Positions 16,553 through 23,024 of a DNA stretch of 40,108 bases are shown here, in pieces; positions within the stretch are counted from its first letter, which is position 1; each line of letters starts with the position of its first letter. The notes under the pieces were generated by a model. It made no database searches. It was given only the letters and a program-made list of their open reading frames with translations, and was not told the DNA's origin. A program made the position numbers and the translations under genes. The stretch covers positions 1 through 40,108 of the forward strand of contig NZ_BLZO01000134.1 of assembly GCF_014132355.1 (NCBI RefSeq). Direction: 5' to 3'. This DNA is from Okeania sp. KiyG1 (GTDB lineage Bacteria; Cyanobacteriota; Cyanobacteriia; Cyanobacteriales; Microcoleaceae).

Positions 16553-18396
16553 TTATTCCCAAGGCGATCGCGCCTGGTCTAATAAATTATATAATTCCTC
16601 ACCTTCTATCACTTCTTGTTCTAAAATTTGCTGAGAAATCTTTTCCAATAAATCTCGATTATGATTCAAAATATCTAAAGCTTCTTGATGAGCTTTCTCT
16701 ACAATTTCCTTCACTTCATTATCAATTGCTTCAGCAGTTTTTTCACTCAATAAACGACGAGAATTAACCCCACCATTCGCCAAAAATCCTCCTTTGCCAC
16801 CCCGTTCATAAGCTAAAGGTCCTAATACTTTACTCATGCCATAAGTTGTTACCATTTGCTCGGCAAAATCAGTGGCTTTTTGTAAATCTCCAGAAGCTCC
16901 AGTAGTGATATTTCCAAATATAATTTCCTCCGCTGCACGTCCTCCCAAAAAAGTAGCAATTTGCCCTCTAATTTCTTGTTCATTTCTTAAAAATCTATCC
17001 TCAGTAGGAAGTTGCAAAGTATAACCTAATGCTGCCATTCCTCTTGGTACAATTGAAATTTTTTCCACCTTACCACTACCAGGCATTATCGCCCCAACTA
17101 AAGCATGACCAACCTCGTGATAAGCAACTATTTTCTTTTCGCGATCGCTCAAAACTCTACTTCTTTTTTCTAAACCAGCAACTACCCTTTCAATAGCTTC
17201 AGCAAAGTCTTTTTGTGCCACAGTTTGCCTTTGATTTCTAGCAGCTAATAAAGCAGCTTCATTAACAAGATTAGCTAAATCTGCACCGCCAAAACCAGAA
17301 GTTCTCACTGCTATTTTATGTAAATCTACATCTTCTCCTAACTTAACTTTTTTACCATAAATATTTAAAATTGCTTCACGGCCAGATAAATCAGGGCGGT
17401 CTACTAATACTTGTCTATCAAACCTTCCCGGACGTAATAAAGCAGCATCTAAAGCCTCTGGACGGTTAGTAGCAGCCAAGATAATAACTGTCAAATCTCC
17501 CGCACCAAAACCATCCATTTCAGTTAACAATTGATTGAGAGTTTGTTCTCGTTCATCATTACCGCCACTGTGAAAATTTCCACTGGTTCTTGACTTACCA
17601 ATTGCATCTATTTCATCAATAAAAATAATACAAGGAGCCTTCTTTTTTTGCCTCTTTAAATAAGTCACGAACTCTAGCAGCACCAGTACCAACAAATAGC
17701 TCTACAAATTCAGAACCAGATATACTAAAAAAAAGGTACTCCTGCTTCTCCTGCCACTGCTTTTGCTAATAAAGTTTTACCCGTTCCAGGAGGTCCGACT
17801 AATAATAAACCTTTAGGAATTCTAGCTCCAATTTCAGTGAACCTTTGAGGTGATTTTAAGAAGTCTACAATTTCTGTTAATTCTGTCTTTGCTTCTTCCA
17901 CTCCAGCAATATCAGCAAAAGTAATTTTATCTGATTCTCCCTCGACATAAACCTTCGCTTTATTCCTACCCATTGACAGAGCGCCTTGAGAACCACGATT
18001 CATAAAAAACTGAAATGCTAATACTAATATGATAGGTGGGATTACCCAGTTTAACAGAATAGCAACCCAGCGACTTTGAGGTGGTGCAGCTTGAAATAAA
18101 ACTTTATTATCTTCTAAACGCTGAAGTAGTTGGGGGTCATTTATTCGAGTAGTAGTAAGTAAAGGTCCGGGTTTATCTTCTTCTCCTTTGAGACGATATA
18201 AAATTTTTTCTTCATCTATTTGAACTCCCAGTACCTGTCCGTTTTCTACTTGTTGAATAAAGGCACTGTAAGTAACACGAGGAGGTTTACGACGTGGCAT
18301 TAATAAATATGCTGCTAATAACAGACCTGCCAAAATTAATAATGCATTGCCAATTTGACGCTTATTAGGACCTTTTGGTTTCTTTTTAAGACTCAT
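16553..18396 (-). pseudogene. ftsH: FtsH membrane AAA+ metalloprotease, two frameshifts in homopolymers
   Basis: The rejoined protein is ~615 aa, normal for FtsH. N-terminal part (17725-18396): two membrane segments (about 15-33 and 107-131), the periplasmic/lumenal domain between them, and Walker A GPPGTGKT at 201-208. C-terminal part (16553 to about 17650): FIDEIDAIG (Walker B), [18 protein letters not shown] (second region of homology) and the zinc site HEVGH, ending LYNLLDQARSPWE. The coding strand has T8 where T7 would keep [12 protein letters not shown], and A7 near 17642-17648 where A6 would keep [12 protein letters not shown]; both are +1. FtsH degrades damaged membrane proteins such as photosystem II D1 in thylakoids. 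All active-site motifs are intact, so either inactivation is recent or the indels are sequencing errors. Of the cyanobacterial types it resembles the FtsH1/FtsH4 side more than FtsH3. Confidence 0.85.
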
Positions 18397-18479: not shown

Positions 18480-18654
<175 letters not shown>

Positions 18655-18812
18655 TTTTGAAAAAGACAATTTCTTCCGCAGAACGACCCCCCAATAAAAT
18701 AGCAATTTGTCCGCGAAGTTCCGCCTCATCTCTTAAAAATTTATCCTCAGTAGGAAGTTGCAAAGTATAACCTAATGCTGCCATTCCCCGAGGAACAATA
18801 GAAATTTTCTCT

Positions 18813-20156
18813 ACCGTACGAAAAAAACTGTAGAAAATTGTAACAGCTTTTATCTTGATATTGGATTAACCAATACAGGCTGTACGGCACAGCTCACTAT
18901 CCCCTCGGCAGTAAATGCCTCTGGGAATTTCTTTCTAATTATTTGAAGACTGCCATTAACATCGGCATTAATGACTATACCAGTTCCACTCCTGAATAAA
19001 CCACGTTTGACTCGCTTGCCTACATAGTTTTCATGTTTAATTGGTTTTTCTAGGTCAATAGCAGATGTTTTACTGGTGTAACAATCTTGCTGTTTCAATA
19101 ACTTTTACCCCAACCAGTTGACACTTATAAGTTATCTGTTGAATTAACTTATAATGAGGTATTTGAGTAAAATTTTGGTTGTTTTTTTTGCCTATATTTG
19201 CTCCTTGTTTCCAGTTATCATTTTTTCCTATGACTACAGTACCAATATTATTTGTGGTTAAATACTCAACCACTAACTTACTGGTGTTATGCAGATAATT
19301 CTCTACAAAACGATTTCGGTGATAGGTTAACGCTTCAATCTTACGGCTAGTTTTTCTGTTGCCTTTGAGATGACTTTGGTACTTAGCTTTACGCTTGTTG
19401 TAAAGCTGATTAACACTTTTTAGTGGCTTCCCGTTAACAAGCATAGGCTTAACACCAGGCTTATTTGTAGATAGAGCAACTAATCTGTCAACCCCTAAGT
19501 CTATTCCGGCTACATATGTTGAGTGTATTTGTGGCTGAAGTGTTTTTTCATAGACTACTTCAATTATATAGCAGCTAGTAGCAGGTACTATCCTGACTTC
19601 GATTACAGTTTCTACAACTACAGGTATTTTGATTTCACTCATGGATAAGTGACAAATACCATCTTTTAGACTTGCTCTATAGACTGATTCCTTTGAATAT
19701 ATAACTACATTTCTACCTTGAGTTTTATTTTTATACTTTGGTATTTTTGGCTTACCTAAAAACTTCTCTGGATGTTTTGACCATTCTTTTATAGCTTGAA
19801 AATAGCCGCGCCAAGTGGCAACCAAGCATTTTATTATTTGTTTTGATACTTTAGTTGGTAATGCTCTATAGGCATCGCTATCTTTGGTGGTGTGGTACAG
19901 TTTAGTTAAATCCAGACTATGACCTGTACAGAAAAAATGTTGACGACAGTAATAATTAGCCAAATTATACAAGTTTTTTGACTTAAAGGCTAACTCATCA
20001 CAGCAAGCCCAATACTGATGTGTTCGGTTAATAATATGTCTGTCAACAAGTCGCATTCACCTGAATTATTTCCTAAGCTTTAGTTACCTGTTTAATATTA
20101 AAACACTTTTCTTATAATAGCAACTACTTTCTACAATTTTTATTCAACAGTTAATC
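18813..20156 (-). mobile_element. IS200/IS605-type tnpB element B, inserted in ftsH
   Basis: The boundaries come from the interrupted ftsH codons. On the coding strand the host reads GGTAGGGT, then the element begins GATTAACTGTT and ends TTTTTTTCGTACGGT, then the host resumes AGAGAAAATT. The same two ends occur in the element at 20757-22110. There is no terminal inverted repeat and no clear target duplication, as expected for the family. Its tnpB is frameshifted. Confidence 0.85.
18850..20056 (-). pseudogene. tnpB: tnpB of element B, one frameshift
   Basis: The first 328 codons (19070-20056) are close to the intact copy at 20794-21999 ([49 protein letters not shown]). One extra base near 19085-19095, in GAAACAGCAAGATTG versus GAAACAGAAGAAAG of the sister, shifts the frame to an early stop after ETARLLHQ. 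The remaining ~75 residues (YTSKTSAIDLEKP to [26 protein letters not shown]) continue in the next frame to 18850. The break falls at the conserved EESYTSKTS motif. The product would lack RuvC-III, so the protein should be inactive, though the element could still be moved or guided in trans by the sister copy. Confidence 0.85.
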
Positions 20157-20756
20157 ACCCTACCACTGCCAGGCATCAATGCACCAACTAAAGCGTGACC
20201 AACTTCGTGATAAGCAACAATCTTTTTCTCTTTGTCACTGAGAAGGCGACTTTTCTTTTCCAAACCTGCCACAATACGCTCGATCGCTTCAGCAAAATCT
20301 TCTTGAGTAACCTGTTCTCTTCTGTTACGCGCTGCTAATAATGCTGCTTCATTAACCAGGTTAGCTAAGTCCGCACCAACAAAACCAGGAGTACGAGTAG
20401 CGATCGCTTTTAAATCTAAATTATCTGCTAACTTAACTTTGGCAGCATAAATTTCTAATATCTTTAGACGACCTGGTAAGTCGGGGCGGTCTACCAAAAC
20501 CTGACGGTCAAATCTTCCGGGTCGCAGCAAAGCGGGGTCTAAAGTTTCGGGGCGGTTAGTAGCAGCTAAAACGATAACTGTTGACTGAGTGGCAGAAAAG
20601 CCATCCATTTCAGTTAACAACTGGTTGAGAGTTTGTTCCCGTTCATCGTTGCCACCGTAAAAACCACCACTGGCACGAGATTTTCCAATAGCATCAAGTT
20701 CGTCAATGAAAACTATGCAGGGTGCTTTTTGTTTTGCTTGTTCAAATAAGTCTCGT

Positions 20757-22110
20757 ACCGTACGAAAAAAACTGTAGAAAAATGAAACAGCCTTTATCTT
20801 GATATTGGATTAACCAACACTGGCTGTACGGCGCAGCTCACTATTCCCTCGGCACTAAATGCCTCTGGGAATTTCTTTCTGATTATCTGAATACTGCCAT
20901 TGACGTCAGCATTGATCGCTTTACCTTTTGAACTTCTAAACAAACCCCGTTTGACTCGTTTTCCCACATACAATTGATGCTTACAGGGCAATTCCAGGTC
21001 AAGTGCAGAAGTTTTACTGGTATAACTTTCTTCTGTTTCAATTACCTTGATTCCTGCCAATTGACATTTATAAGTTATCTGTTCAATTAGCTTGCAGTGA
21101 GGTATTTGGGTAAATTTTTGGTTGTTGATTTTGCCGATGTTTGTACTTTGTTTCCAATTATCATTTTTTCCAATTACTACAGTACCAATATTATTCGTCA
21201 CTAAATAATTGACAACTAACAAGCTTGTGTTATGCAGGTAATTGGAAACAAAACGATTTCTATGATAACTCAATGCTTCAATCTTACGACTGGTTTTTCT
21301 ATTGCCTTTGAGACTACTTTGGTGCTTGGCTTTACGCTTATTATACAGTTGATTGACACTTTTTAGTGGCTTCCCATTAACAAGCATAGGTTTTACACCA
21401 GGCTTGTTTGTAGCTAGAGCAACTAATCTATCAATCCCTAAATCTATTCCTGCTAAATATGTTGAGTTTATTTGTGCAACAGATTTTTTTTCATAGACTA
21501 CTTCAATTACATAGCAACCAGTAGCAGGTACTATTCTCACTTCGATTACAGTATCCACAACTACAGGTATTTTAATTTCACTCATGGATAAGTGACAAAT
21601 ACCATCTTTGAGAGGAGCTTTATAGACTGATTCCTTTGAATATATAACTACATTTCGACCTTGAGTTTTATTCTTATACTTTGGTATTTTGGGTTTACCT
21701 AAAAACTTCCCAGGATATTTTGACCATTCTTTTATAGCTTGAAAATAACCACGCCAAGTTGCAACTAGGCATTTTATTATTTGTTTTGATACTTTAGTTG
21801 GTAATGCTCTGTAGGCATCGCTATTTTTGGTTGCGTGGTATAACTTGGTTAAATCTAGACTTTTTCCACACTTGAAAAAATGCTGACGACAATAATAGTT
21901 AGCCAGGTTGTACAAGTTTTTTGACTTAAAAGCTAACTCATCACACACCCGCCAATAGATATGTGTTCGGTTAATAATATGTCTGTCAACAAGTCGCATT
22001 CACTTTCTATTTTTTACTATTTTTTAGATTTTAGTTGTTACTTGTTTAATACTACAACACTTTTGCAAATTTTGCAACTATTTTCTACGGTTTAAGTTTA
22101 ACAGTTAATC
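20757..22110 (-). mobile_element. IS200/IS605-type tnpB element A, inserted in ftsH
   Basis: Coding-strand host sequence GCAAGGGT, element start GATTAACTGTT, element end TTTTTTTCGTACGGT, host resumes ACGAGACTTATT. Left flank AGGGT is shared with element B. The element's last bases ACGGT resemble the flank AGGGT, the usual relation between the left target and the right cleavage site in IS605-type elements. It has one intact tnpB and no tnpA. Confidence 0.85.
20794..21999 (-). CDS. tnpB: TnpB-like protein, subfamily lacking the canonical RuvC-II Glu and zinc ribbon
   Basis: An intact 401-aa protein. Ruv[15 protein letters not shown] supplies Asp186, and Ruv[12 protein letters not shown] supplies Asp365. 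At the usual RuvC-II position the sequence reads [12 protein letters not shown] (277-283), with no Glu. A conserved [11 protein letters not shown] at 321-331 offers Glu323/Glu324 as a possible substitute. The Cys-X2-Cys zinc ribbon of standard TnpB is missing, replaced by [23 protein letters not shown]. This architecture is a known large subgroup (IS891/IS1341-like), and rearranged catalytic Glu positions have been described in TnpB relatives; whether this one cuts DNA is not known. It is distinct from the TnpB at 2714-4033. The last codons ISR stop 37 bp before the element end, so any omega-RNA must overlap the gene's 3' part. Confidence 0.88.
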
Positions 22111-22918
22111 ACCCTTGCTGCACCTGCACCCACAAATAATTCGACAAATTCGGAACCAGAGATGCTGAAAAATGCTACTCCTGCTTCTCCTGCAACTGCC
22201 TTTGCTAGTAGAGTTTTTCCAGTTCCTGGAGGTCCGACTAATAATACACCTTTGGGAATGCGTGCGCCGATATTAGTAAAACGTTCGGGAGACTTAAGAA
22301 ATTCCACAACTTCTGCTAATTCTGTTTTTGCTTCTTCTACTCCTGCCACATCGTTAAAAGTTACTTTGGTAGATTCACCTTCAACGTAAACTTTTGCCTT
22401 ACTTTTTGTAATCGAAAGTGCCCCTTGGGGACCGCCAAAACCACCTGCACGACGACCGATAAAAAATTGCCAGATAGCAACAAAAATTAGTGGAGGAATT
22501 ACCCAACCCAAGATATTGCTAAAAAAGTTATTAGAAGGAGGTGGGGCAGCAAATTCTACTCCTTTTTGTTCTAGACGTTTTGGTAATTCTAGGTCGAATA
22601 TTGGGGTAGTTGAAAATACCTGTCCTGGTTATTCTTCTGTTCCTTTGAGTTGATAGCGAATTTGTTCTTGACCTACAGAAGCTCTTGCTACTTTGCCGTC
22701 TTCTACTTGGTCAATGAATAAGCTGTAAGGAACGCGAGGAATTTGAGGACCGAATAAATTAGGAAATACTAGGTTGATAAATAGGAAAATGCCTGCTAGC
22801 AATAATAATATATTGCCAATTCTAATATTGCGAGGTCCTTGTGAGTTGTCTTTGATGCTCATGGTTATTATTTTTTTGGGTAAGCAAGATATTAGTCTAT
22901 GTATTTATTTTATATTAT

Positions 22919-23024
22919 TTCTGAGGAAAAGAGGGAATAGGGAATAGGGAATAGGGAATAGGGGAAAATAGTTGATGTCTCTAGTGGGATAATTGATTTG
23001 ATTTTTTATTATTGGAGATGTCTA
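22919..23024 (+). mobile_element. MITE copy, GACATCTCC-end family
   Basis: AGGAAAAGAGGG, a heptamer run (AGGGAAT)4, GGGGAAAATAGTTGATG, GGGATAATTGATTTGATTTTTTATTATTGGAGATGTCTA. The right end is intact; the left end is worn. It lies about 50 bp from the left end of the IS5-type element, which has matching termini. Confidence 0.65.

Follow-up and report, generated by a model that had tools for sequence, protein, structure and literature searches.

The DNA analysed here is a stretch of 40,108 nucleotides from the cyanobacterium Okeania sp. KiyG1 (contig NZ_BLZO01000134.1, positions 1 to 40,108; in the following, the window). It contains two related tnpB elements, each preceded by AGGGT, within one ftsH gene, which confirms the observation of a preliminary description of the same DNA. 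That description regarded AGGGT as the left target and transposon-adjacent motif (TAM) of both elements. The features concerned are (a slash marks an insertion point or junction):

18640..22862, minus strand: broken ftsH copy hosting both insertions; stop codon in the 5' part, 3' part absent
20757..22110, minus strand: element 1, a complete tnpB-only element of 1354 bp, assigned to the IS607 family; among the 54 complete elements counted below that share its ends; empty site in two relatives
22111..22115 (22115-22111), minus strand: left flank AGGGT of element 1, predicted TAM, its final three bases being the shared core
20794..21999, minus strand: tnpB of element 1, an intact open reading frame (ORF) of 401 amino acids (aa); NF040570 guided_TnpB, 156.6 bits (cut-off 100)
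18813..20156, minus strand: element 2, a related tnpB-only element of 1344 bp with a frameshifted tnpB; empty site AGGGT/AGAG in two relatives
20157..20161 (20161-20157), minus strand: left flank AGGGT of element 2, predicted TAM
18850..20056, minus strand: remains of the element 2 tnpB, spread over two frames that overlap (19070-20056 and 18850-19098)

On the minus strand, element 1 reads AGGGT/GATTAACTGTT...TTTTTTTCGTACGGT/ACGAGAC and element 2 reads AGGGT/GATTAACTGTT...CGTACGGT/AGAGAAA. As previously described, both follow AGGGT, start with GATTAACTGTT and end with CGTACGGT, which forms the right end of element 1 at 20757 and that of element 2 at 18813. The ftsH codons continue across the sites (G-A-A-R/V-R-D at site 1 and S-G-R/V-E-K at site 2), and the insertion points deduced from this continuity were corroborated by two same-genus genomes, in which the orthologous ftsH genes have both sites empty and align there without gaps. 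Site 1 reads CGGGT/ACGAG and CGGGT/GCGAG in these relatives, and site 2 reads AGGGT/AGAG in both; 27 further loci, which were more divergent, were left out of the comparison. Each empty ftsH site holds one GGT only. Since both relatives have CGGGT at site 1, base -5 of this target may have been C.

The host gene had been called dispensable. It is rather an ftsH copy that was already broken apart from the insertions: a stop codon interrupts its 5' part, and the 3' part is gone. At the same place, the two same-genus genomes carry paired uninterrupted ftsH ORFs of 619 + 627 aa and 637 + 623 aa. All four match the ftsH query, and the orthologues of the broken copy are those of 623 and 627 aa. The reading frame of a neighbouring second ftsH (window 16553-18396) breaks into two near 17700, next to A/T runs, which reflects either a frameshift or a sequencing error. 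Short tandem repeats, AGGAGTC and GGGAATA, lie beside the broken ftsH ends (window about 18520-18550 and 22930-22970).

To define the target, we compared copies from the 11-Mb genome itself, which yields 161 TnpB matches (E ≤ 0.001; a single gene may account for several) and 19 left ends of this element family, with copies from close relatives (Okeania, Hydrocoleum and Microcoleaceae genomes; the best 80 of 115 relatives). A left-end scan with patterns drawn solely from the element interior gave 76 matches. Thirteen were discarded by eye as chance matches because the downstream sequence was not that of the element, and the pattern missed at least one left end (L042, flank TAGGGT). GGGT precedes 62 of the 63 left ends judged real. 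For a flank-independent count, a left and a right end were demanded in one locus; after removal of two duplicate pairings of 56, this gave 54 complete elements (the own genome contributing 12, other genomes 42), a set that misses element 2 of the window, whose ends fell in different loci. GGGT precedes 53 of the 54, compared with a background of 291 in 103,065 positions in the 1-kb flanks, and is thus far above chance. The remaining element, L176, follows AGGAT. In all six paralogous stretches compared, the deviating base is G (GGGT in three, GGGA in two, CGGT in one), so that AGGAT is likely a later mutation. The pentamers are GGGGT (27), AGGGT (20), TGGGT (4), CGGGT (2) and AGGAT (1), corresponding to G 27, A 21, T 4 and C 2 at base -5. 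With AGGGT at just 20 of the 54 elements, the A shared by both ftsH sites is uninformative. Copies with flanks other than AGGGT had been named in the preliminary description as evidence that would refute it, and the count bears out this refutation in part.

Two additional insertions have empty sites, which makes four insertions in all, each with one GGT in the empty site. The third reads GGGGT/TTCC in five genomes and TGGGT in a sixth, and the fourth reads GGGGT/GGTA in two genomes, one of them with zero mismatches, others being more divergent. At the other end, 6 of 80 matches were discarded because they did not contain the TTCTACAG core, and CGGT ends 73 of the 74 right ends retained. The first base 3' of the right end is weakly biased (T 36, A 24, G 11, C 3; 0.37 bits; n=74), and further positions up to +15 carry at most 0.36 bits each. 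Together, the flank counts and the empty sites define the insertion site as (R)GGGT, R being a purine. The flank thus predates insertion and reflects insertion specificity, as proposed previously, with RGGGT in place of AGGGT as the motif, and this RGGGT flank offers the best prediction of the TAM at present.

Which transposase moves the elements is indicated by a relative with the same left end. The own genome contains 13 IS607 TnpA matches and 24 Y1 transposase matches (gene pieces counted separately). A copy on contig C157 (L140) has the left end AAGGGT/GATTAACTGTTGAAC, identical to that of the window elements, and 261 bases inside it an intact IS607 TnpA of 213 aa (NF033518, 201 bits, cut-off 110; PF00239, 76 bits), the gene of which overlaps the start of tnpB. 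An Oscillatoriales copy has a 66% TnpB relative after a 57% TnpA relative, between a left end AAAGGGT/GATACCTG (starting GATACC) and a right end CAAACGGT at the contig end. TnpA-like frames also precede tnpB relatives in Crocosphaera, Nostoc, Hyella and Methanoperedens (tblastn), and an annotated IS607 transposase lies just before such a tnpB in two of nine plasmid regions examined; the plasmid and viral relatives, whose right ends were not independently fixed, were used solely to see an IS607 transposase beside this TnpB type. A 14-nt motif occurs at the left end of 52 of the 54 complete elements (≤ 3 mismatches), and all 54 carry it in inverted orientation at their right end (≤ 2 mismatches). 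The 24 loci around Y1 matches (several matches being fragments of a single gene) lack the element ends. Both window elements are without tnpA. From the IS607 TnpA behind the same left end, the shared motif and the lack of these ends at the loci around Y1 matches, we conclude that they are tnpA-less IS607 derivatives, members, on sequence criteria, of an IS607-family group abundant in Okeania-like cyanobacteria.

This assignment accounts for the GGT ambiguity that had been noted at each junction. The ambiguity corresponds to the core shared by target and element; as IS607 targets and element ends share a core, GGT is expected at both junctions and is not resolvable by empty sites. IS607 elements recombine between matching dinucleotides, which leaves no freedom in the base that follows the right end (PMC10711439). 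The IS607 circle and its overlap dinucleotide are described in PMC4058570, and IS607 inserts at GG, with (G)GG preferred (PMC6188088). GG of the IS607 crossover sits within GGT, yet sister families have TAT, GCT or CCT, and the exact two-base crossover within GGT is ambiguous from sequence alone.

Three of the loci with these elements (L140, L177 and L189) have a small conserved ORF of about 53-64 aa between the left end and tnpA, with the pattern K-V-V-R-V-T-x-x-E-F-E-L ... Y-D-H-W, partly read by eye. Two versions gave no Pfam or NCBIfam match above cut-off; the encoded protein could have an accessory or regulatory role in these IS607 elements. In one locus (L309; C72:97400-101000), a different type of tnpB lies within 3 kb of both an IS607 TnpA and a Y1 transposase.

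The TnpB encoded at 20794-21999 also matches PF01385 and PF07282 above cut-off. It has D186, E324 as the alternative RuvC-II Glu, and D365, whereas the canonical RuvC-II Glu position is G277; a CxxC zinc finger is not present in this protein, and by our own count E324 lies six residues before the zinc-finger position. Of 22 representatives, four without an open frame were left out of the alignment. D186, E324 and D365 are kept in all 18 remaining proteins, the window TnpB included, and RuvC-I is DLG or DIG in all 18 (DLG in the window TnpB). Alternative-Glu TnpBs comprise a DPG clade, with pro-Fanzor and Fanzor, and a D-hydrophobic-G clade (PMC10711439). DLG, G277, E324 and D365 together identify the window TnpB as an alternative-Glu protein of the D-hydrophobic-G type. 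It shares the alternative catalytic Glu, the cyanobacterial origin and the link to IS607 with pro-Fanzors and Fanzors (PMC10711439), but a pro-Fanzor identity is ruled out by a RuvC-I motif that is DLG/DIG and not DPG in 18 of 18 proteins. Many tnpB copies in the genome are broken.

By analogy with published TnpBs, the right-element RNA (reRNA) would be a transcript of the tnpB 3' end and the right end. In a fold of the last 190 bases of element 1, GCCGTAC, within the tnpB codons A-V-Q, pairs with the terminal GTACGGT, and this outer stem encloses the hairpin GTGTTGG-TTAAT-CCAATAT plus a second hairpin. The predicted stem arms and guides are:

20826..20832, minus strand: 5' arm GCCGTAC of the element 1 stem, inside the tnpB codons A-V-Q (fold, covariation)
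20757..20763, minus strand: 3' arm GTACGGT of the predicted element 1 stem, ending in the core GGT (fold, covariation)
20737..20756, minus strand: predicted 20-nt guide of element 1, in downstream ftsH (from the stem position and published IS607 reRNAs, PMC10711439, PMC11061315)
18882..18888, minus strand: 5' arm GCCGTAC of the predicted element 2 stem (sequence)
18813..18819, minus strand: 3' arm GTACGGT of the predicted element 2 stem (sequence)
18793..18812, minus strand: predicted 20-nt guide of element 2 (from the stem position, PMC10711439, PMC11061315)

The single best pairing within 190 nt was not significant for most families alone. Therefore, the stem was retested at the homologous position with slide and permutation controls. 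The outer stem has at least five of six pairs in 21 of 21 representatives (family B read one base earlier). The mean at the homologous position was 5.62 pairs, a value that compares with a maximum of 3.62 among 75 other offsets (B unshifted), and shuffled ends matched the observed total in 0 of 20,000 trials, or in 2 of 20,000 with the ten distinct arm-end pairs. In a stricter test of seven families, with ends fixed by copy drop-off and family B again read one base earlier, 41 of 42 pairs form, including 21 of 21 core pairs. Among the permutations, only swaps of identical ends did as well (6 and 12 of 5040), and moving the arm left at most 3.43 of 6 pairs versus 5.86 observed. The inner hairpin occurs at a similar place with at least four pairs in 21 of 22 relatives, a count made without a chance control.

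Core and arm covary as GGT/GCC, GCT/GGC (Crocosphaera), TAT/GTA and CCT/GGG (Methanoperedens). Family B keeps the same RNA arm in another reading frame (L-P-F-N versus A-V-Q), which argues for constraint on the RNA. GGT thus looks like guide-RNA scaffold rather than guide, and with the stem directly before it the guide would start just after GGT. An Rfam search of window 18700-22300 gave one unrelated sub-threshold match only, and the RAGATH-18 reRNA was not matched; two Ligilactobacillus regions had no obvious stem partner by eye. An alignment of twelve right ends, with poor blocks from cut coordinates, was not used for counts.

Sister families repeat the relation between target and element end with other cores. 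Families A and B have target GGGT and element end CGGT, the left flank of family B being GGGGT (L010, L012, L013, L015). Two TAT families have target GTAT and element end CTAT in 10 of 10 copies with the left end reached. The Microcoleus group among them (L196, L197, L198, L200, L206) has the left flank GTAT in 5 of 5 copies and the end GTAACTAT, and is predicted to represent a second TAM class. Hence, in all four families for which both ends could be read, G precedes the core in the target (G+core) and C precedes it at the element end (C+core). For the GCT family, codon continuity of one interrupted gene supports CACGGCT/TTGTG as the left flank, but a search for the empty site found none, and this flank was not counted; the left end of the archaeal CCT family was looked for and not determined. 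At about 2680-2720 of L012, two B-family elements stand in tandem, the right end TTGAGCGGT being followed by the left end AAATGCAGC with one GGT shared; no A-family tandem was seen in 377 loci.

These data suggest the following course of events. An IS607 serine transposase acting in trans would move both elements, and insertion would be a recombination between a core common to the circle joint and the target (here GGT), with (R)G-GGT as the target and C-GGT as the element end. In the reRNA, the terminal bases, core included, would pair with the tnpB 3'-end codons to form a stem directly before the guide. TnpB would then cut empty alleles that combine RGGGT with a guide match, which would favour recopying of the element, while the occupied site, with ACGGT before the same guide match, would escape because of C for G at -4. 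We consider this explanation as a whole, i.e., tnpA-less IS607 elements, shared-core insertion, a guide-adjacent stem and an RGGGT-directed TnpB, to be likely. A further proposal is advanced tentatively. The core may be read three times, as TnpA crossover, inner part of the TAM and stem strand, so that a core swap among GGT, GCT, TAT and CCT would need two or three tnpB coding bases to change as well, and G-to-C at -4 may discriminate target from donor, the latter limited to the GGT and TAT families. We rate this proposal lower because the end of the CCT family in Methanoperedens has G before the core (TAGCCT), which contradicts a universal C+core.

Several other observations weigh against the explanation. 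The C157 copy bearing the matching tnpA has no right end found, and close TnpA was not found in five other same-genus genomes (best 42% identity), i.e., among six genomes of the genus it occurs in the own genome only. At the fourth insertion (L269), another relative has GGGGA. As for the stem, the lack of significance in most single-family searches has been mentioned; the one-base offset of family B was picked with the pairing already known, and the right ends of 8 of the 21 representatives (L177, L179, L180, L184, L016, L207, L215, L315) were assigned by motif or contig end, these eight being left out of the seven-family test. Copies of a subfamily share descent, and independent stem events are few (four cores). 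Finally, 18 of the 54 complete elements have a changed arm (GCCGAGAGC in 17, GACGAGAGC in 1; GCCGTACAG in the others) that keeps about four adjacent pairs only. This arm is one base longer, which puts the last tnpB codons in another frame. For the changed-arm copies, which include L006, L009, L018, L023 and L026, a local hairpin GCGC-CGAGA-GCGC is possible, and these elements may be decaying or using that hairpin.

Three other explanations have to be weighed against this one. A strict requirement for the pentamer AGGGT, suggested by both ftsH sites and contained in the preliminary description, is refuted as stated by the count of 54 complete elements, 33 of which do not have A at -5 (but G in 27, T in 4 and C in 2) and among which GGGGT outnumbers AGGGT; we give it practically no credence. 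The likeness between the element's last bases and the flank, which the same description had noted in terms that imply an IS605-like logic, could also arise in IS200/IS605-type elements, where a Y1 (HUH) transposase would insert single-stranded circles 3' of RGGGT and CGGT would be a right cleavage site that is merely alike. A conserved left flank, no target duplication, the tnpB-only layout and the weakly biased right flank all fit such elements. However, these ends were seen to enclose one kind of transposase only, an IS607 serine recombinase, the ends are missing at all 24 loci around Y1 matches, and the last bases common to both junctions across cores fit the matching-core insertion of IS607, which uses a dinucleotide (PMC10711439, PMC6188088). 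The likeness is then that of a shared crossover core, and an IS200/IS605 origin appears very improbable.

More serious is the view that RGGGT is a target preference of TnpA only, with TnpB recognising something else or being inactive and the stem owed to shared descent. IS607 TnpA itself favours (G)GG targets (PMC6188088), many tnpB copies are broken, and the B-family tandem in L012, with the left flank GCGGT (GCGGT/AAATGC), used a core without G at -4. This tandem, a single case, suggests at the same time that TnpA can use such a core, so that the G may mark TnpB. The retention of the three catalytic residues in 18 of 18 proteins speaks against the TnpA-only view. So do the AG-rich motifs beside the putative left end of other IS607 TnpBs, which are reported to match the measured TAM (PMC11061315), and the TAM of ISXfa1, which is GGG (PMC10711439). 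Moreover, covariation of the core with tnpB codons, together with the frame shift of family B, is hard to explain by descent. We therefore regard a pure TnpA preference as unlikely, albeit less so than the other two alternatives. The preliminary interpretation is, on balance, partly supported.

The elements resemble the IS607 family (IS607, ISXfa1, ISC1904, IS1535) in the serine transposase with a MerR-like N-terminal domain, the overlap of tnpA with tnpB, the lack of target duplication, the short repeats near the ends and the core shared by both junctions. They differ in that nearly all copies are without tnpA, the target is extended to RGGGT and the shared stretch comprises three bases. ISDra2 and other IS200/IS605 TnpB elements likewise have an RNA-guided nuclease with a TAM at the left flank, but differ from the window elements by their Y1 transposase. 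TnpB of the ISDra2 type has an AT-rich TAM (TTGAT), the canonical Glu and a zinc finger. The IS607-type elements ISXfa1 (PMC10711439) and ISFba1 (PMC11061315) are closer in having a TnpB with a G-rich TAM, i.e., GGG in the former and, for IS607 TnpBs in PMC11061315, AGGAG in 18 of 22 strains and GAGGG in 4 of 22. The base after the right end of ISXfa1 is part of the reRNA scaffold (PMC10711439), as the flank-derived bases would be here. In ISFba1, scaffold bases that are guide-adjacent by their numbering form the pseudoknot PK2 with an upstream loop (PMC11061315). Unlike in these two systems, the stem partner here consists of tnpB codons and changes in step with the recombination core, of which four versions were compared, Rfam gave no match, and TnpB is of the alternative-Glu, D-hydrophobic-G type without the CxxC zinc finger. 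The elements are thus ordinary in kind, and a guide-adjacent helix, a flank-derived scaffold base and G-rich IS607 TAMs are already published. In the literature searched, with subscription journals mostly outside it, we recognised no description of RGGGT-type or cyanobacterial TnpB TAMs and none of a covariation between recombination core and reRNA.

Guide boundaries and TAMs of TnpBs are usually found by experiment, enzyme by enzyme. If the rule of core plus stem is true, both could be read from the genome sequence for the IS607 TnpBs of this clade: for the GGT and TAT families the TAM would be G+core, and the guide would begin with the base that follows the core. The rule would also explain how the target core can change without loss of the nuclease, and how nuclease targeting can outlast the loss of an element's own transposase.

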